This document shows positions 8,048 to 15,999 of a stretch of DNA of 15,999 bases, in pieces. Source of the stretch: an uncultured Chryseolinea sp. (lineage in GTDB: Bacteria > Bacteroidota > Bacteroidia > Cytophagales > Cyclobacteriaceae); assembly GCA_946478915.1 (NCBI GenBank), contig CAMLER010000030.1, forward strand, positions 1 to 15,999. The letters are read 5' to 3'. The first letter of the stretch is position 1; every line of letters starts with the position of its first letter. The translations under genes were made by a program, and so were the position numbers. Below the pieces are notes generated by a model. That model was not told the origin of the DNA and searched no databases. It saw nothing but the letters and a program-made list of their open reading frames with translations.

Positions 8048-8177
8048 TCTAAATTGCAACTCTAATGCAATGAATTTCGTCTTTCCTTTCAGCTTCCGCC
8101 AGAATTTTCTCTTTGGCCCAATTACGAGTGAAATCTACAAAGCCCAAAAGTTGTTTTTCATTTGCTGTTCGAGGCTC
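8048..8177 (-). pseudogene. Relic of a carbon-nitrogen hydrolase C-terminal region
   Basis: On the minus strand this stretch reads, without gaps, as a divergent copy of the hydrolase encoded at 9581-10531. The relic has RTANEKQLLGF, a 10-residue stretch, then KILAEAERKDEI; the intact gene has RTGIEKKLWGF, ten residues, then KILAAAGREEEI. About 15 of 34 residues are identical. The nucleotides around 8096-8107 match 9709-9720 exactly. A stop codon lies ~10 codons upstream of the RT and no homologous sequence continues beyond it, so no functional protein can be made. It is an old remnant of a paralogous gene, now in the leader region of the dehydrogenase operon. The rest of 8178-8511 holds nothing I can identify. 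Confidence 0.55.
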
Positions 8178-8511
8178 TAAAAGACAAGGTATAAATCATT
8201 GTGGAAGTATTGAAAACATATTACAAAATGACTTTTCCATCGACGTTAATTCAATATTCATTCGTGATCCAAGTCCTCCAAAAAGAAACTTTTTTGTCGG
8301 ATATTACTTCAAAAACCAAGTTCGAATCAAGGGAATAACTGGTGATTTTGTATTACATGAACGGATGCAGGAGTCTTGGTGTGACATATTTGCGAACGCC
8401 CAGGTGAAACTTTCTAGAACAGGGCGTAAAGTTTCCCAAAACAAGTCTGCAACCTTCCTTAGTAACAGCTACATGGACAATAAAATGGTAAACTTTTACA
8501 TCTCTTTGCAA

Positions 8512-8519
8512 TAGTTTTG
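8512..8519 (+). promoter_or_regulatory. Bacteroidota -7 promoter box for the sugar kinase
   Basis: TAGTTTTG is an exact TAnnTTTG match ending 21 nt before the ATG at 8541. A start site a few bases downstream would leave a short leader, which supports ATG 8541 over the in-frame TTG at 8517 that overlaps the box. No clear -33 element. Confidence 0.45.
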
Positions 8520-8540
8520 ACAAACACATTTAGAATATCT

Positions 8541-9464
8541 ATGGGGATACCTATATATGTTGTGGGGAGCTCGAACACCGATATGGTAGTGAAGGCAGAT
8601 AAATTACCGTCGCCGGGTGAGACAGTAATTGGAGGCTCGTTCCTTATGAATCCGGGCGGCAAGGGAGCAAATCAGGCCGTTACAGCGTCAAGGCTGGGTG
8701 GCAATGTGACCTTCGTTGCAAGCATCGGAAACGATGTTTTCGGAAGACAGGCAATGCAGCAATTCCAAAGAGAGAAAATCAACACTTCCTTCATCACCAC
8801 CGACAAAAATCATCCTTCGGGTGTCGCGCTTATCAATGTAGATGCCAAAGGTGAAAACAGTATCGCAGTGGCACCGGGAGCAAATTCTCAACTTAATATC
8901 GTCAACGTTGAACAGGCGTTAGCGTCGATTAACGGTCCGGCTATACTACTTCTGCAATTGGAGATTCCTTTGGATACGGTGGAGTACACGATTGAACAGG
9001 CCTACAAAAAGAAGGTGAAAGTGATCCTCAATCCCGCACCTGCCAATATCCTGAGCGATGAAGTTTTCAAACATCTCTTTGTCATTACACCCAATGAATC
9101 AGAAGCTGAATTGTTGACGGGTATTCGTGTAACCAATATTGAATCTGCTGAAAAAGCAGCGCAGCTCTTGCATAAAAAAGGAGTGGCCAATGTAGTTATT
9201 ACGTTGGGATCAAAGGGTGCATACCTTTCGAATAGCGAAATGAAAGAACTTATCGCGGCTCCACCGGTTACGGCGATCGACACAACCGCCGCGGGCGATT
9301 GCTTCAACGGAGCACTCGCCGTAGCACTGTGCGAAAGCAAATCGCTGGATACGGCCGTAGCGTTTGCGTGTAAAGCAGCATCAATTTCTGTAACCCGCAT
9401 GGGAGCGCAATCCTCTTTGCCATTCAGGAAAGAGGTTGATGACTTATTGCTCGCGGCTTTGTAG
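8541..9464 (+). CDS. rbsK: Ribokinase-family (PfkB) sugar kinase
   Basis: Cytoplasmic kinase of 307 residues, the normal ribokinase length. It would phosphorylate D-ribose (or a related sugar) with ATP, feeding the pentose phosphate pathway. Visible motifs are the substrate-side VGSSNTD (8-14), the first PfkB signature NPGGKGANQA (37-46), NPAPA (164-168), and the second signature DTTAAGDCFNGA (247-258) containing the anion hole and catalytic base D253. The NPGGKGANQA wording is closer to ribokinase than to fructokinase or adenosine kinase, but sugar specificity is inferred only. It stands alone downstream of its own promoter, convergent with the hydrolase gene; no ribose transporter or isomerase is adjacent. 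Confidence 0.88.
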   Translation: MGIPIYVVGSSNTDMVVKADKLPSPGETVIGGSFLMNPGGKGANQAVTASRLGGNVTFVASIGNDVFGRQAMQQFQREKINTSFITTDKNHPSGVALINVDAKGENSIAVAPGANSQLNIVNVEQALASINGPAILLLQLEIPLDTVEYTIEQAYKKKVKVILNPAPANILSDEVFKHLFVITPNESEAELLTGIRVTNIESAEKAAQLLHKKGVANVVITLGSKGAYLSNSEMKELIAAPPVTAIDTTAAGDCFNGALAVALCESKSLDTAVAFACKAASISVTRMGAQSSLPFRKEVDDLLLAAL

Positions 9465-9580: not shown

Positions 9581-10531
9581 TCAGAAATCAAGCAAGCGTT
9601 TATACAGATCCACTCGCCGATCAGCCATGTATGTTGCATAGTTGGCCCAGGTATTTCTCATCTCTAAATCAATTGGCGCCACAAGAATTTCTTCTTCCCT
9701 TCCGGCAGCCGCCAGAATTTTTCCTTGTGGTCCTACGATGACAGAATTTCCAAAACCCCAAAGTTTTTTTTCTATTCCGGTCCGGCATGCCATTCCTACA
9801 AATACGTTGTTTTCAAGGGCTCTGGTCATCGCCAAAGCTTTTGATTGCTCCGGACTCCATCCAGCAGGCCCGCTAATTTCATCAGCAAACCAAAAAGTGG
9901 AATTAAGTATTAATTGTGCTCCCTTTAAAGCCAACCCCCTGACGTATTCCGGAAACATAAAATCATAGCAAATGGTCAGGCCTACTCTGCCGAGTTCAGT
10001 ATCCACAATTACTGCTTGATCACCATAACCTATATCATTCTTTTCAAAACTAAAAGGATGCACTTTCCGATATTTGGCCACCAGCCCTTTTACAGGTGAG
10101 ATCATTATAGAAGTATTGAATGGCTTATTGTTATCGCCCTTTTCCATCATTCCGCCGCTGATCCAAATGTTCTTCTTTGCCGCCAGTTTCTCCAGGAAAG
10201 AAACTGTTTTTCCAGGTATTTCTTCGGCAACTGAATTCAGATCAAGAGAATAACCGGTTGTTCCATATTCACAAAAAACAGCCATCCTCACTTCTTTATC
10301 TACAATACTATGAACCATAGAAGATATTTTCTCAAGATTGGTGTTGATGTCGCCGAGAGCGGAATCGATTTGCAGAATGGCTAGTTTCTTTTCAGTTTTC
10401 ATATTATTCTGTTTCAGCAAAGGTTCGAGCAAATTTGACTGCCCCAATACTAAGGGATCGGCAGTTGCGACAAGCGTCGCATTCATTGCTTTTCTTAAAA
10501 AAATTCTTCTTGATTCCACAGTTTGAATCAC
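9581..10531 (-). CDS. Carbon-nitrogen hydrolase (nitrilase superfamily) with Tat-like leader
   Basis: Amidase/nitrilase-superfamily enzyme of 316 residues from a GTG start. The catalytic Glu-Lys-Cys triad is present as E88 (FCEYGTTGY), K156 (YRKVHPF) and C188 (TICYDFMFPE). Family members hydrolyse amides, carbamoyl groups or nitriles; the substrate is unknown. Residues 1-30 (VESRRIFLRKAMNATLVATADPLVLG) resemble a twin-arginine signal, which is unusual for this family and would place the enzyme in the periplasm. The leader contains an aspartate in its hydrophobic part and may be weak. The alternative start ATG 10402 (residue 44, MKTEKK) would give an ordinary cytosolic enzyme. A degraded paralogous fragment lies 1.5 kb away. 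Divergent from the RraA-family gene. Confidence 0.87.
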   Translation of the reverse strand: MIQTVESRRIFLRKAMNATLVATADPLVLGQSNLLEPLLKQNNMKTEKKLAILQIDSALGDINTNLEKISSMVHSIVDKEVRMAVFCEYGTTGYSLDLNSVAEEIPGKTVSFLEKLAAKKNIWISGGMMEKGDNNKPFNTSIMISPVKGLVAKYRKVHPFSFEKNDIGYGDQAVIVDTELGRVGLTICYDFMFPEYVRGLALKGAQLILNSTFWFADEISGPAGWSPEQSKALAMTRALENNVFVGMACRTGIEKKLWGFGNSVIVGPQGKILAAAGREEEILVAPIDLEMRNTWANYATYMADRRVDLYKRLLDF

Positions 10532-10597: not shown

Positions 10598-10653
10598 GTA
10601 TCTCGTGGGAACTAGATCGTGGAATGCGTTAGGCTTGACTTTTCGCGAGATAC
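10598..10653. promoter_or_regulatory. Spaced inverted repeat GTATCTCG ... CGAGATAC in divergent promoter region
   Basis: Two perfect 8-bp inverted arms (10598-10605 and 10646-10653) lie 48 bp apart, within the 253-nt gap between the divergent hydrolase and RraA-family genes. The spacing of 4-5 helical turns would allow one regulator to loop across both promoters. No exact -7 box was found for either gene, so this is only a candidate. Confidence 0.25.
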
Positions 10654-10784
10654 CTGAGCTTAACTCAGACGGTCGAAGTCATCAGAAAGCAAACCATATT
10701 GCGAATAAACATTTTTCTCCGTCTGATGCTTTACTAGTAAATCAATTCTCGCCAAGTAATATCAGGAACTCAAATTTTAACACT

Positions 10785-11570
10785 ATGAAGAGCACTAATT
10801 TGATACTCGCATTGGTTGGATTAATGTTCACCAGTGCTTTCGCTCAGGAAAAGCTATCGGACGAAGAAATTCTAAAACTATATGCTACGCTGAGGGTCGC
10901 CGATGTGTCTGACGGAATGGACATGGTGGGCCTTCGCGATGCAGGACTTATGGATCAGCGTATTGCCGCCTTGTGGAAAGATACCGATAAGATGAAACAT
11001 ATTTTCCGGGGGATCGCTGTAACGGCACGCTATGTGCCGACAAACAAAGTGGTAAAGAATCCGATGTCAAAGGAGGAGTTTCAGAAATGGGAAGGCAGTT
11101 GGTATGGTACATTGTCAACCGAACCATTTGTTGAATTTATCAAGCCAGGGTCTGTCGTAGTAATTGACTTCTCTGGTGATGGTGACACTGGTTCAATTGG
11201 CTCCAACAATTCGCTGACATATCTGCAGAAAGGTGCCCGCGGAATTGTCTCAAACGGAGGCGTACGTGACACCGATGAAATAATCAAACAACAGATTCCA
11301 GTTTATTTCGACCCGATGCATCGGGGCAGAGGTATTCGTCCGGGTCGAAACGAAATTGAATCAGTGAATAAACCTGTCACGGTTGGAGGAGTGTTGGTTC
11401 GTGCTGGAGATGTAGTAGTAGCGGATGGCGATGGCGTGGTAGTGGTGCCTCGCGAATACGCCAAGCCCGTTGCAGAATATGCGCTCGAAATACTTCAAAA
11501 GGATAAGACTGCTCGACGGGAAATGTACAAGAAACTTAACATGCCGTTGGATGAAACGGTTGAGGAGTAA
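10785..11570 (+). CDS. Secreted RraA-family (HMG aldolase-like) protein
   Basis: The ATG at 10785 gives 261 residues. The open frame extends 60 codons further left, but that part does not look like protein, and the chosen start opens a clean Sec signal (MKSTNLILALVGLMFTSAFA, cleavage before Q21). The mature part is an RraA fold: SNGGVRD at 156-162 with R161-D162 as the substrate- and metal-binding pair, then RAGDVVVADGDGVVVVP (206-222), the usual closing motif. RraA relatives include 4-hydroxy-4-methyl-2-oxoglutarate/oxaloacetate aldolases, and databases often mislabel them as demethylmenaquinone methyltransferase. True RraA regulators are ~160 residues and cytosolic; this longer, exported version is more likely a catabolic aldolase/lyase. 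Exact reaction unknown. Confidence 0.85.
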   Translation: MKSTNLILALVGLMFTSAFAQEKLSDEEILKLYATLRVADVSDGMDMVGLRDAGLMDQRIAALWKDTDKMKHIFRGIAVTARYVPTNKVVKNPMSKEEFQKWEGSWYGTLSTEPFVEFIKPGSVVVIDFSGDGDTGSIGSNNSLTYLQKGARGIVSNGGVRDTDEIIKQQIPVYFDPMHRGRGIRPGRNEIESVNKPVTVGGVLVRAGDVVVADGDGVVVVPREYAKPVAEYALEILQKDKTARREMYKKLNMPLDETVEE

Positions 11571-11620
11571 GAGAGAGGGTCCGTTCTGGGAGTGAGGAAT
11601 AAGGAGTAGGTGGACGCCTG

Positions 11621-11662
11621 CCGTCTCCGCTGAGTCTCCCGTCTCGGGGACTCAGTCGGACT
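11621..11662. repeat. Hairpin B alone, left boundary of the array
   Basis: The array begins with a solitary B hairpin 50 nt after the RraA-family stop codon. No A half precedes it, so the first element was truncated or the array grew from this point. The 50 nt before it include a GAGTGAGGAATAAGGAGTAGG stretch that resembles the simple repeats near 1530. Confidence 0.8.
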
Positions 11663-11750
11663 GTTGGCGTCATTAAAAAACAATACAAATATCAACCCTG
11701 GTCGACGTCAGCATCGGCCGACGATCACCAAAATGAATTTTGCATCTTCG

Positions 11751-11900
11751 ACGCAGCGTCCCTGAGACAGGAGACGCTGCTGTGACAGCGCTTCAATATC
11801 GAGGTATCAATCTAAATGGACGGCAAGTGTGCATTATATCTTCGGATAGCAGCATGCGCCGTCTCCGCTGAGTCTCCCGTCTCGGGGACTCAGTCGGACT
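11751..11900. repeat. Double-hairpin element 1 (A-linker-B)
   Basis: Hairpin A pairs AGCGTC (11755-11760) with GACGCT (11773-11778) plus CCT/AGG, leaving loop GAGAC. Hairpin B pairs CTGAGTC (11868-11874) with GACTCAG (11887-11893) plus CCC/GGG, leaving loop GTCTC. The A core 11758-11775 and B core 11872-11889 are also reverse complements at 16 of 18 positions, so a long A:B stem is an alternative fold. GCTGCT (11776-11781) can pair with AGCAGC (11848-11853) inside the linker. Confidence 0.85.
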
Positions 11901-11989
11901 ATTTCCATCTCTACCAAAAATTAAATAAACCGCTGCGTACGGAAGTCAGCAACATCCAACAATCACCAAAATGAATCTGCATTAGCGTG

Positions 11990-12139
11990 ACGCAGCGTCC
12001 CTGAGACAGGAGACACTGCTGTGACGGCACTTCCATATCGACGTATCAACTCTAGATAGCTGCAAGTGTACATTATATCTTCGGATAACAGCATGCACCG
12101 TCTCCGCTGAGTCTCCCGTCTCGGGGACTCAGGCGGACT
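11990..12139. repeat. Double-hairpin element 2
   Basis: Same 150-nt length as element 1. Differences include GACACT for GACGCT in the A stem, which weakens it, and GACGGCAC for GACAGCGC. The new GACGG can pair with CCGTC at the start of B. The base after the B stem is G instead of T, at a position predicted to be unpaired. Confidence 0.85.
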
Positions 12140-12182
12140 GCGTTCATCTCTCCCAAAAAATACCAAATACACCGCTGAGTGC

Positions 12183-12200
12183 AGGAGGCAGCACCCTCCT
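12183..12200. terminator. Hairpin AGGAGG-N6-CCTCCT downstream of lipoprotein gene 1
   Basis: A perfect 6-bp stem, extendable by GTG/CAC with one bulge, lies ~105 nt beyond the lipoprotein stop codon on the minus strand. A T-rich run follows only ~20 nt later, so it is an imperfect terminator candidate. It is repeated at 13897-13914. Confidence 0.3.
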
Positions 12201-12304
12201 CACAATTATCAGAATGAATTTGCATCGAATGCTTCAAATGCCGGATAATTCGACCAAAATGAATATTGAAATCTTCGGCGGAGCTTACGTTCTGAATGAT
12301 TCTG

Positions 12305-13519
12305 TTAATAAATTATAATACCACGAGAAACATAACTTTCATTCTCCCATTCAGGAAGTATAGCCCGCTCATATGGCAGAGACTCAACATAAAACTGCGT
12401 AGAGAGGTGCTTCATGTTCACGATAGACAATTTCGGATGGTTTGTTATAATTCCGGCAGGAAGCTCAGTTAACTTGTGACTTCCTAATGAGCTGTACACG
12501 TACCAGTTCACTTCTAAATTATTTGAAGACTCTGAGAATCCAAAATTGCTCTTGCGATAAATAAAGGGCGCTGTAGAGGTCGCATAAAAATCTTGAATGT
12601 CATTGGACAATATTGCATATCCCTCTGGCGAAAGAGCTGAAATGTTCTCTTGAGGAATTGCCCCTTTATTGCGATAGAAAAATTTGTATGTCGGATAACC
12701 AACGCTAATTTCTGTAACGTATTTCGATAAGCTGTTTAAATAACCTCCCTTTATGCTCTTATGAAAGTCTGTGCCGAAGTGAAGTTGGTGAAGATACGAT
12801 GGAGGTTCGATTGATTGATTTGATTCACGACCTGTTATATAAAAGTATACTTCATTGCTCTCTGGAAAATTAAATTCGACCGTGTGATCAAATTCAGACA
12901 ATTCATCAAATGAAAAAGTGTAGGAATCATTGGCCTGCGGATTGTCAAGTATCCTATATCTAATATTACCTTCCAAGTCAGAGGCCTGCAAGAGAAATTT
13001 TGGGATCAAGTCGCTTAAATACGCCGTTACTGTAAAACTCGGTTTATCGTATTGTTGCCATGAACTCCCCATAGCGTGCTGATTTGTAACAGCATATTGG
13101 TGCAACGGACCCGTTGAGTTCACCGTAATATCAAACGTACCGCTGAATGTCGATGCGCCAGTTATAGGCGGAGTAAAATAATTCAGTTTTAATTCTCCCC
13201 CTTTCTGGTAGTGAAAGTATGTATTCGCTATGTAGCGCTCAGTACCATATTCCCAAACATGTTTTATTATTGTCACCGCAATAGTTTGACCCTTCACTAG
13301 TTCCGATGTTGTAATAATTTTTACGTCACCGGTTTCAAAAGATTCAAATGTGATGGGGGTCCCGTCTTCATCATGAATAATGACCCAGTTATCTGTGTCT
13401 GATGTTTCAAAACTTTCATCTACAATCAGGGTTAGTAAGGCCAAAGGCGCTTTCGGTTCATCGTTCTCGCACGCGAAAGATAAAAGAAGAACGGCAATGA
13501 ATATAAGATGTGTTTTCAC
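12305..13519 (-). CDS. Uncharacterised cassette lipoprotein, copy 1
   Basis: I do not recognise this protein. The chosen GTG at 13519 gives 404 residues opening with a lipoprotein signal, MKTHLIFIAVLLLSFAC, then acidic ENDE directly after the cysteine, a pattern compatible with surface export in Bacteroidota. An in-frame TTG at 13549 was rejected because it overlaps the promoter box. The mature part is rich in aromatic and beta-prone residues with few charged clusters, suggesting a beta-sandwich-like extracellular protein. An ESFETSD / ESFETGD duplication occurs near the N-terminus. No catalytic motif is visible. Its base composition is more AT-rich than the housekeeping genes to the left, and it sits as cargo inside the repeat array, both hinting at transfer or specialised expansion. 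Confidence 0.8.
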   Translation of the reverse strand: MKTHLIFIAVLLLSFACENDEPKAPLALLTLIVDESFETSDTDNWVIIHDEDGTPITFESFETGDVKIITTSELVKGQTIAVTIIKHVWEYGTERYIANTYFHYQKGGELKLNYFTPPITGASTFSGTFDITVNSTGPLHQYAVTNQHAMGSSWQQYDKPSFTVTAYLSDLIPKFLLQASDLEGNIRYRILDNPQANDSYTFSFDELSEFDHTVEFNFPESNEVYFYITGRESNQSIEPPSYLHQLHFGTDFHKSIKGGYLNSLSKYVTEISVGYPTYKFFYRNKGAIPQENISALSPEGYAILSNDIQDFYATSTAPFIYRKSNFGFSESSNNLEVNWYVYSSLGSHKLTELPAGIITNHPKLSIVNMKHLSTQFYVESLPYERAILPEWENESYVSRGIIIY

Positions 13520-13546
13520 AGATTTTATTAAGTAGACAATAACACA

Positions 13547-13554
13547 CAAAAGTA
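13547..13554 (-). promoter_or_regulatory. -7 promoter box of lipoprotein cassette 1
   Basis: The minus strand reads TACTTTTG, an exact TAnnTTTG match. It leaves a leader of about 20 nt before the GTG at 13519, and the sequence before the start is A-rich as expected for Bacteroidota. The promoter travels within the cassette. No -33 TTTG at the expected distance. Confidence 0.5.
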
Positions 13555-13703
13555 TCCGACTAATCTTAAATGCTGGAATGCGGAACTTTGTAACCTAGTT
13601 TTCCTGGTTCCATTTCATTGTCTCGGAATGGATCCAATCGATTAATTGGTATCCTCTCAAGACTGAAGAATAAATTTTGAATCAAAATGAATTTGCATCG
13701 GAC

Positions 13704-13853
13704 ACGCAGCGTCCCTGAGACAGGAGACGCTGTTGTGACAGCGCTTCCATATCGAGGTATCAACTCTAGATAGCTGCAAGTGTACATTATATCTTCGGAT
13801 AACAGCATGCACCGTCTCCGCTGAGTCTCCCGTCTCGGGGACTCAGGCGGACT
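13704..13853. repeat. Double-hairpin element 3
   Basis: It lies between the two filled cassettes. Relative to element 1 the linker pair changes from GCTGCT/AGCAGC to GCTGTT (13729-13734)/AACAGC (13801-13806), a G-C to A-T swap that keeps pairing. The A and B loops remain GAGAC and GTCTC. Confidence 0.85.
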
Positions 13854-13896
13854 GCGTTCATCTCTCCCAAAAAATACCAAATACACCGCTGAGTGC

Positions 13897-13914
13897 AGGA
13901 GGCAGCACCCTCCT
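13897..13914. terminator. Hairpin AGGAGG-N6-CCTCCT downstream of lipoprotein gene 2
   Basis: Exact copy of the hairpin at 12183-12200, placed the same distance beyond the second lipoprotein gene. Confidence 0.3.
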
Positions 13915-14018
13915 CACAATTATCAGAATGAATTTGCATCGAATGCTTCAAATGCCGGATAATTCGACCAAAATGAATATTGAAATCTTCGGCGGAGCTT
14001 ACGTTCTGAATGATTCTG

Positions 14019-15233
14019 TTAATAAATTATAATACCACGAGAAACATAACTTTCATTCTCCCATTCAGGAAGTATAGCCCGCTCATATGGCAGAGACTCA
14101 ACATAAAACTGCGTAGAGAGGTGCTTCATGTTCACGATAGACAATTTCGGATGGTTTGTTATAATTCCGGCAGGAAGCTCAGTTAACTTGTGACTTCCTA
14201 ATGAGCTGTACACGTACCAGTTCACTTCTAAATTATTTGAAGACTCTGAGAATCCAAAATTGCTCTTGCGATAAATAAAGGGCGCTGTAGAGGTCGCATA
14301 AAAATCTTGAATGTCATTGGACAATATTGCATATCCCTCTGGCGAAAGAGCTGAAATGTTCTCTTGAGGAATTGCCCCTTTATTGCGATAGAAAAATTTG
14401 TATGTCGGATAACCAACGCTAATTTCTGTAACGTATTTCGATAAGCTGTTTAAATAACCTCCCTTTATGCTCTTATGAAAGTCTGTGCCGAAGTGAAGTT
14501 GGTGAAGATACGATGGAGGTTCGATTGATTGATTTGATTCACGACCTGTTATATAAAAGTATACTTCATTGCTCTCTGGAAAATTAAATTCGACCGTGTG
14601 ATCAAATTCAGACAATTCATCAAATGAAAAAGTGTAGGAATCATTGGCCTGCGGATTGTCAAGTATCCTATATCTAATATTACCTTCCAAGTCAGAGGCC
14701 TGCAAGAGAAATTTTGGGATCAAGTCGCTTAAATACGCCGTTACTGTAAAACTCGGTTTATCGTATTGTTGCCATGAACTCCCCATAGCGTGCTGATTTG
14801 TAACAGCATATTGGTGCAACGGACCCGTTGAGTTCACCGTAATATCAAACGTACCGCTGAATGTCGATGCGCCAGTTATAGGCGGAGTAAAATAATTCAG
14901 TTTTAATTCTCCCCCTTTCTGGTAGTGAAAGTATGTATTCGCTATGTAGCGCTCAGTACCATATTCCCAAACATGTTTTATTATTGTCACCGCAATAGTT
15001 TGACCCTTCACTAGTTCCGATGTTGTAATAATTTTTACGTCACCGGTTTCAAAAGATTCAAATGTGATGGGGGTCCCGTCTTCATCATGAATAATGACCC
15101 AGTTATCTGTGTCTGATGTTTCAAAACTTTCATCTACAATCAGGGTTAGTAAGGCCAAAGGCGCTTTCGGTTCATCGTTCTCGCACGCGAAAGATAAAAG
15201 AAGAACGGCAATGAATATAAGATGTGTTTTCAC
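14019..15233 (-). CDS. Uncharacterised cassette lipoprotein, copy 2
   Basis: Encodes a 404-residue protein identical to the product of 12305-13519, including the GTG start, lipobox LSFAC and acidic ENDE. No amino-acid difference is present, so the pair has had no time to diverge or is kept identical. With its own promoter copy it should be expressed equally, doubling gene dose. Tandem identical genes allow loss or gain by homologous recombination. Confidence 0.8.
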   Translation of the reverse strand: MKTHLIFIAVLLLSFACENDEPKAPLALLTLIVDESFETSDTDNWVIIHDEDGTPITFESFETGDVKIITTSELVKGQTIAVTIIKHVWEYGTERYIANTYFHYQKGGELKLNYFTPPITGASTFSGTFDITVNSTGPLHQYAVTNQHAMGSSWQQYDKPSFTVTAYLSDLIPKFLLQASDLEGNIRYRILDNPQANDSYTFSFDELSEFDHTVEFNFPESNEVYFYITGRESNQSIEPPSYLHQLHFGTDFHKSIKGGYLNSLSKYVTEISVGYPTYKFFYRNKGAIPQENISALSPEGYAILSNDIQDFYATSTAPFIYRKSNFGFSESSNNLEVNWYVYSSLGSHKLTELPAGIITNHPKLSIVNMKHLSTQFYVESLPYERAILPEWENESYVSRGIIIY

Positions 15234-15260
15234 AGATTTTATTAAGTAGACAATAACACA

Positions 15261-15268
15261 CAAAAGTA
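15261..15268 (-). promoter_or_regulatory. -7 promoter box of lipoprotein cassette 2
   Basis: Same TACTTTTG box on the minus strand, about 20-30 nt before the GTG at 15233, carried inside the duplicated unit. Confidence 0.5.
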
Positions 15269-15417
15269 TCCGACTAATCTTAAATGCTGGAATGCGGAAC
15301 TTTGTAACCTAGTTTTCCTGGTTCCATTTCATTGTCTCGGAATGGATCCAATCGATTAATTGGTATCCTCTCAAGACTGAAGAATAAATTTTGAATCAAA
15401 ATGAATTTGCATCGGAC

Positions 15418-15564
15418 ACGCAGCGTCCCTGAGACAGGAGACGCTGTTGTGACAGCGCTTCCATATCGAGGTATCAACTCCAGATAGCTGCAAGTGTACA
15501 TTATATCTTCGGATAACAGCATGTGTCTCCGCTGAGTCTCCCGTCTCGGGGACTCAGCCGGACT
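15418..15564. repeat. Double-hairpin element 4 (3-nt deletion)
   Basis: Like element 3 in its A half and linker, but three bases are missing at the linker/B junction (near 15523-15525), giving 147 nt. The base following the B stem is C here, the third variant at this unpaired position (T, G, C among elements). Spacer type switches back to the empty form right after it. Confidence 0.85.
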
Positions 15565-15652
15565 GTTGACGTCATTAAAAAACTATACAAATATCAACCC
15601 TGGTCGACGTCAGCATCGGCCGACGATCACCAAAATGAATTTTGCATCTTCG

Positions 15653-15802
15653 ACGCAGCGTCCCTGAGACAGGAGACGCTGCTGTGACAGCGCTTCAATA
15701 TCGAGGTATCAATCTAAATGGACGGCAAGTGTGCATTATATCTTCGGATAGCAGCATGCGCCGTCTCCGCTGAGTCTCCCGTCTCGGGGACTCAGTCGGA
15801 CT
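15653..15802. repeat. Double-hairpin element 5
   Basis: Appears identical to element 1 (offset 3902). The 88-nt spacer before it differs from the first spacer at two positions (GTTGAC for GTTGGC and AACTAT for AACAAT). Confidence 0.85.
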
Positions 15803-15891
15803 ATTTCCATCTCTACCAAAAATTAAATAAACCGCTGCGTACGGAAGTCAGCAACATCCAACAATCACCAAAATGAATCTGCATTAGCGTG

Positions 15892-15999
15892 ACGCAGCGT
15901 CCCTGAGACAGGAGACACTGCTGTGACGGCACTTCCATATCGACGTATCAACTCTAGATAGCTGCAAGTGTACATTATATCTTCGGATAACAGCATGCA
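15892..15999. repeat. Double-hairpin element 6, cut by window end
   Basis: Copy of element 2 (offset 3902) up to the last linker base; hairpin B would begin at the next nucleotide outside the window. By analogy with the first block a filled lipoprotein cassette may follow. Confidence 0.8.

Follow-up and report, generated by a model that had tools for sequence, protein, structure and literature searches.

How does a bacterial genome come to hold an array in which structured elements of nearly constant length are separated by spacers that are either short or filled with an entire lipoprotein gene? The question is raised by positions 11621-15999 of the window, the whole 15,999-nt stretch analysed here, which comes from an uncultured Chryseolinea sp. 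of the family Cyclobacteriaceae (contig CAMLER010000030.1). A preliminary description had read this region as a cassette-like array and a possible distinct mechanism for collecting surface-protein genes. Our analysis leads to a different answer, which we consider very probable: the array is a run of tandem bacterial interspersed mosaic elements (BIMEs), that is, doublets of repetitive extragenic palindromic (REP) sequences, or REPINs, belonging to a REP family of Chryseolinea and its relatives, within which recombination has amplified a lipoprotein gene and no new cassette system is at work. On this reading the hairpins are a new family within a known class, REP/BIME, accompanied by a tandemly duplicated gene, and the cassette idea is not needed.

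Six type A hairpins on the minus strand alternate with six type B hairpins on the plus strand across 11621-15999, in agreement with the repeat layout that was first noticed, and the array continues beyond the window end at 15999. The B hairpins lie at 11623..11661 (a bulged hairpin with the foot GTCTCC), 11861..11899, 12100..12138, 13814..13852, 15525..15563 and 15763..15801, and the A hairpins at 11752..11782, 11991..12021, 13705..13735, 15419..15449, 15654..15684 and 15893..15923. Measured from core to core, the A-linker-B elements are 132, 132, 132, 129 and 132 nt long, the linker preceding the fifth B hairpin being 3 nt shorter; these values agree with the constant length of 147-150 nt given earlier with wider borders. 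The inner gaps from a B hairpin to the next A hairpin are 90-91 nt or 1566 nt at our hairpin borders, and the 88-89 nt and 1564 nt reported before differ only in where the hairpins were cut. Every neighbouring hairpin pair in the window that lies no more than 300 nt apart is inverted (9/9). Each A-linker-B element is a REP doublet, or BIME, a term that passages of PMC8266576 use for a REP with an inverted REP, often in tandem.

The elements had been described as structured, and they are. Their two hairpin types are not unrelated, as A is the reverse-complement form of the B hairpin with a changed stem. The shared core reads GTC-T-CC..GG-GAC, and in the predicted folds the T after GTC is bulged out of the 5' arm and a 3-nt loop closes the stem. 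Around this core each REP carries an outer stem that is variable yet paired, with a GTC foot ahead of it; downstream of the B hairpins stands TCGGAC, GCGGAC or CCGGAC. A set of 100 distinct hairpins was drawn from the window and from related genomes. Of its 500 outer-stem positions (five outer pairs each, all outside the hairpin search pattern), 422 form Watson-Crick pairs; with the arms dealt anew the mean was 296 and the highest value 320, so that the outer stem covaries. An inner pair is T-A in place of C-G in 18 of the 100, a change that the pattern permitted. The structure is conserved as a short imperfect palindrome, one of the traits of REPs. No Rfam family reached its gathering score anywhere in the window, and 11600-13700 was without a match in phage and plasmid collections.

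GTC is found in all seven distinct feet of the window, in 29 of 31 in CF_bin.38 (a fragmented Chryseolinea metagenome-assembled genome, MAG), in 17 of 29 in Chryseolinea serpens, in 7 of 11 in genome G007 and in 4 of 4 in genome G006, where shuffling gave means of 0.4 for the window, 1.3 for CF_bin.38 and 1.0 for C. serpens. The tetranucleotide CGTC accounts for 4/7 distinct feet in the window and 15/31 in CF_bin.38, most of the remaining ones having GTC after another base. The related genome SSA6 shows no GTC at all among its distinct feet (0/22) and has TTC in every one (22/22).

A search for the elements elsewhere, proposed in the preliminary description as a check, found them dispersed in CF_bin.38 and, in variant form, in further genomes of Chryseolinea and its relatives. 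Scanning genome contigs with the exact core gave 12 loci, eight of them in CF_bin.38 and one each in C. serpens, SSA6, UBA2786 and RH-18aug17-329. With up to two mismatches the matches numbered 28 (on 12 contigs), 41, 24, 6 and 7 in these genomes, respectively, and the reversed pattern gave 0 in all five. Within the genus of C. serpens, four of six genomes carry core hairpins (the reversed control matched once, in G007), and none was found in G008 and G009. Under a strict rule, CF_bin.38 holds 33 hairpins over 12 core-bearing stretches, with at least one in 11 of them. Close pairs (no more than 300 nt apart) are inverted in 18 of 22 cases in CF_bin.38, 5/6 in C. serpens, 5/5 in G007 and 2/2 in G006, and in only 1/3 in SSA6. 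These pair counts come from the strict rule and gap lengths from a second set of patterns, whose A-type form also matches some B hairpins; by the latter the largest gap between neighbouring hairpins over the 12 CF_bin.38 stretches is 207 nt, so the BIMEs stand there without the lipoprotein gene between them. The hairpins are extragenic and adjoin unrelated genes, as judged by eye from open reading frame (ORF) maps of 35 stretches rather than by counting. A C. serpens BIME of 150-175 nt (locus L084) has two tandem counterparts in G007 (L132), 87-89% alike, and the reported matches between the two loci are element-sized only.

Two further observations concern these genomes. At L083:5539-8625 in C. 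serpens and L134:2980-6005 in G007, REPs surround what is apparently the same gene, judging from similar ORF starts, which suggests vertical inheritance of some copies. In CF_bin.38, hairpins lie near the start of contigs L123 and L127 and near the end of L124, L125 and L094; such hairpins may break assembly, and longer arrays or a filled spacer could be hidden there.

Which enzyme might move such elements is suggested by SSA6, where inverted REPs with the same core flank a gene for a REP-associated tyrosine transposase (RAYT). The REP-RAYT-REP unit of 741 nt is present in two copies that are 99.6% identical, with homology stopping at the REPs; the RAYT frame of one of the two is split in two pieces. 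A third copy resembles them at 82%, and REPs also adjoin shorter remnants of the RAYT. The two close copies, at L088:3762-4502 and 8434-9173, behave like an insertion element with sharp ends at the REPs. The best NCBIfam model for the protein is NF047646, REP_Tyr_transpos (E 1e-20, 74.1 bits, cut-off 80), and the best Pfam model is PF01797, just under its cut-off (E 2.3e-4, 21.7 bits, cut-off 23); a phmmer search against the PDB returned nothing at E 0.01. On these profile matches we class it as a predicted Y1/HUH transposase related to IS200.

Relatives of the SSA6 RAYT at 1e-20 occur in 32 of 196 genomes drawn from the family, and 30 loci were taken, one per genome for 30 of the 32 (second copies, G047 and G160 were left out). 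In the flank comparison, which covered the 29 loci outside SSA6 (L171-L199, with L029, L031 and L033 for display), inverted flanks scored above all 20 shuffles at 24. A strict bulged-hairpin rule was applied to 37 loci, the 30 plus L031-L035, L040 and L044, four of which have a flank shortened by a contig end (L174, L183, L184 and L193). Of the 25 RAYTs at 41% identity or more, a cut chosen after the flank comparison was seen, 20 have one or more hairpins of the expected sense beside them and 10 have them on both sides; none flanks the 12 more distant RAYTs. Shuffled flanks conformed to the rule in 0/3700 cases and other 320-nt pieces of the same loci in 45/871. The five clade RAYTs without a conforming hairpin are L031, L171, L183, L186 and L188, of which L031 (UBA2786) and L188 (G074) have related flanking hairpins outside the strict rule. 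The core sequence itself varies among RAYT-bearing genomes. As an aside, tandem repeats of another family of hairpins (CTTGTTGGTG..CACCAACAAG) adjoin a different RAYT gene of C. serpens, at L086:3760-4130.

The spacers of the window tell a second part of the story. An exact tandem duplication of 1,724 nt spans 12043..15480 (12043-13766 = 13757-15480), and its ends lie in BIME linkers. It contains the lipoprotein gene, which does stand between elements in two identical units as first described, at 12305..13519 and 14019..15233 on the minus strand, each copy predicted to encode a lipoprotein of 404 aa with a GTG start as in its public relative P0001. Since the two filled spacers are one 1,724-nt duplication, they are not independent captures. 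The empty units are repeated as well: the last two match the first two at 467 of 470 compared nt, and 15585-15999 is an exact copy of 11683-12097. The copy of the first unit (u1') differs from the original (u1) at 3 sites, besides the linker before it that is 3 nt shorter. When the elements to the left and right of the first gene copy are compared, 143 of 148 positions match and all five differences lie left of 12043; the elements to the right of gene copies 1 and 2 differ by T/C at 13767/15481. Given these identities and this comparison of elements, the array can be accounted for by duplicating a filled unit once and a two-unit block once. The distinction between empty and filled spacers is therefore real as a layout, but it comes down to three unit types rather than six independent slots.

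We envision the following sequence of events. REPs of this build would spread as single strands, mobilized in trans by RAYT transposases, as the RAYT-flanking copies in relatives and the literature on TnpA-REP suggest, and a RAYT would have placed the first element at this site. The two REP subtypes occupy opposite strands (A minus, B plus) and are thus inverted, and tandem BIME copies could then act as direct repeats, between which unequal crossing-over or template switching may have duplicated both the lipoprotein segment and the block of empty units. A parallel is found in E. coli, where passages of PMC3161906 place 22 of 90 novel rearrangement junctions at REPs, so that there, too, new duplication junctions fall within REP sequences. 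That study sequenced its junctions from laboratory isolates, and its authors prefer an origin by structure-driven template switching to one by homology; ours are read from one natural sequence.

Several observations weigh against tandem BIMEs of a RAYT-mobilized family as the full account. The foot is GTC and not the canonical GTAG/GTGG, and the 6-41 copies per genome (strict patterns, five genomes) fall below the more than 100 usual for REPs according to PMC2817692. Both the dispersal counts and the RAYT search draw on related genomes only. In the REP-bearing Chryseolinea genomes no RAYT flanked by GTC-footed hairpins was found: nothing in CF_bin.38 matches the RAYT of SSA6, the flanks of the two C. 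serpens RAYTs (33 and 31%) are of another kind, and the Y1_Tnp loci examined from G001, G004, G006 and G007 carry none of these hairpins. Over the 196 genomes, 32 have a match to the RAYT clade, 17 a core match with at most one mismatch, and 3 both (G002, G041 and G082), where about 2.8 would be expected by chance. Eight of the 17 have a single core match and nine have two or more; the reversed-pattern control gave single matches in 12 genomes, and the eight single core matches are thus at the same level. G008 has a clade RAYT with sibling hairpins, yet no core match. Core variation between RAYT-bearing genomes may explain the missing co-occurrence, and we do not count it as support. As to a co-occurring transposase, which the preliminary description had suggested looking for, hairpins with the same core stand around the RAYT of SSA6 and bulged hairpins of the same build beside most of its clade, and over the 196 genomes the co-occurrence of clade and core stays at chance.

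The history of the site can be judged from its neighbouring gene. The array follows an RraA-like gene (10605..11570, plus strand). Its best match in CF_bin.38, at 73%, lacks such an array: 115 nt separate it from a downstream gene of the Ldh_2 family, and the 5.9-kb contig on which it lies showed no REP. If the two RraA genes are orthologous, for which this one match is the basis, the array would be a lineage-specific addition or would have been lost from the MAG. The match speaks for the proposed course of events, in which the site behind the RraA gene would once have been empty; that the argument starts from one gene, and not from a shared gene order, counts against it.

A last point against the proposed course of events lies at the borders of the gene. 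The 20-nt motif ATCARAATGAATTTGCATCG flanks the lipoprotein segment as a direct repeat, at 12208..12227 and 13681..13700 on the plus strand, the two being identical at 19 of 20 nt, a score reached by 0/2000 shuffles; the aligned empty spacer holds a single diverged copy. These repeats fit either an insertion into a ready spacer or two complete BIMEs beside a gene. A variant compatible with tandem BIMEs is thus a single insertion of the gene into a BIME spacer, for which a mobile element or illegitimate recombination at the 20-nt motif could be responsible, after which the filled unit was copied without any dedicated system. We hold this to be a serious possibility that falls short of probable: the border repeats and the single motif in the empty spacer speak for it, but the motif may be part of the BIME unit, two complete BIMEs around a native gene would look alike, and no transposase gene is seen in the cargo segment.

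By inspection the product of the gene is a predicted lipoprotein, and Cys17 is invariant across eight aligned sequences; a protein search gave eight matches, 99 to 37% identical. It has no Pfam hit, only a sub-threshold NCBIfam match over residues 1-27, and no PDB relative by profile search at E 1. Relatives of the gene occur in 11 of the 196 family genomes, at 20 loci, and REPs of this kind were found near none of them (0/20, in stretches of 3.4-4.2 kb), so relatives of the gene exist without these BIMEs. The 99% identical copy, P0001, sits on a public contig of only 1,535 nt at the longest, as if flanking repeats broke assembly there too.

An assembly artefact, in which a mis-joined repeat would account both for the identity of the 1.7-kb units and for the repetition of the u1-u2 block, appears improbable to us. 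In its favour, the two units agree exactly over 1,724 nt, a situation in which assembly is error-prone, and in CF_bin.38 5 of the 12 REP-bearing contigs have hairpins no more than about 0.8 kb from one of their ends. The copies can nevertheless be told apart, by the T/C difference and by the three sites and the shorter linker that separate u1' from u1, and an artefact would leave the identity of the REPs untouched.

For a true cassette array, in which A-linker-B would be an attachment site and a dedicated recombinase would insert or excise genes between elements, there are the constant elements with empty and filled spacers and the 20-nt direct repeats with their single counterpart in the empty spacer. 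The likeness to integron gene-cassette arrays, where structured elements also recur between spacers, ends there. As the preliminary description had already noted, the elements lack integron core sites: from 11601 on, GTTRRRY occurs only at 13113 and 14827, both in the lipoprotein gene, and RYYYAAC at 11954, 12382, 14096 and 15856, none within a hairpin, so that attC core sites are absent from every hairpin. Nor was a recombinase in view, and among 10 window proteins scanned against Pfam there was neither a tyrosine integrase IntI nor another recombinase. Alternative cargo in an equivalent slot, as a cassette system would supply, was not found in the CF_bin.38 stretches or at the 20 loci of gene relatives. 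With a single repeated gene whose filled units are one exact duplication, with elements dispersed over related genomes beside unrelated genes, and with a REP/BIME anatomy whose known tie to RAYT transposases accounts for the hairpins, a distinct cassette mechanism is highly improbable.

What remains is to place the tandem BIMEs of the window among known systems. With REP/BIME elements and their RAYTs (TnpA-REP) they share hairpins that are short and carry a conserved 5' foot, an inverted pairing across a linker, tandem runs, dispersal, and sibling hairpins that flank RAYT genes in related genomes. They differ in the GTC foot a few nt from the stem, in the bulged T, in their modest copy number and in the lack of a cognate RAYT among the REP-bearing Chryseolinea genomes searched. 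Another likeness is offered by the CGTC-tagged REPs of Di Nocera 2013 (PMC3733652). Passages of that paper report CGTC repeats in Bacteroidetes, with CGTC or TGTC at the unpaired end and dimers in opposite orientation; they describe these REPs as having no dedicated host transposase and leave open which enzyme moves them. The published repeats have stems of 8-9 bp with first AT pairs, loops of 4-5 nt and a CCA-like tail, where the window family has a bulged stem, a predicted 3-nt loop and no CCA-like tail. Passages of PMC6006769 describe RAYT groups of Bacteroidetes whose hairpins are atypical. We found no paper that combines "repetitive extragenic palindromic" with Chryseolinea, and, judged by titles only, none on this type of array among papers on REPIN/RAYT with amplification or Bacteroidota, on RAYT in Cytophagales or on REP and lipoprotein duplication.

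What first looked like a new cassette system is thereby recast as a REP/BIME family, for which one RAYT clade can be tested as partner, and the predicted lipoprotein gene becomes a natural example of a duplication bounded by REPs. The RAYT clade whose flanking REPs have the bulged core may provide an entry to the question, raised by PMC3733652 in the passages cited above, of the enzyme that moves CGTC-type REPs. Of particular interest here is that the foot differs, being GTC in these REPs and TTC in those around a RAYT. One could speculate that the GTC-footed, CGTC-like REPs, a class described as having no transposase, are related to REPs that one RAYT clade serves within the same bacterial family, that foot and RAYT changed together as the bulged core stayed, and that a BIME spacer took up the lipoprotein gene, which would now be a REP-bounded, amplifiable unit; taken as a whole, this scenario seems unlikely to us at present. 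Away from the array, the window also contains two 42-nt stretches, at 8072-8113 and 9685-9726, that are 81% alike and lie in or near different genes.

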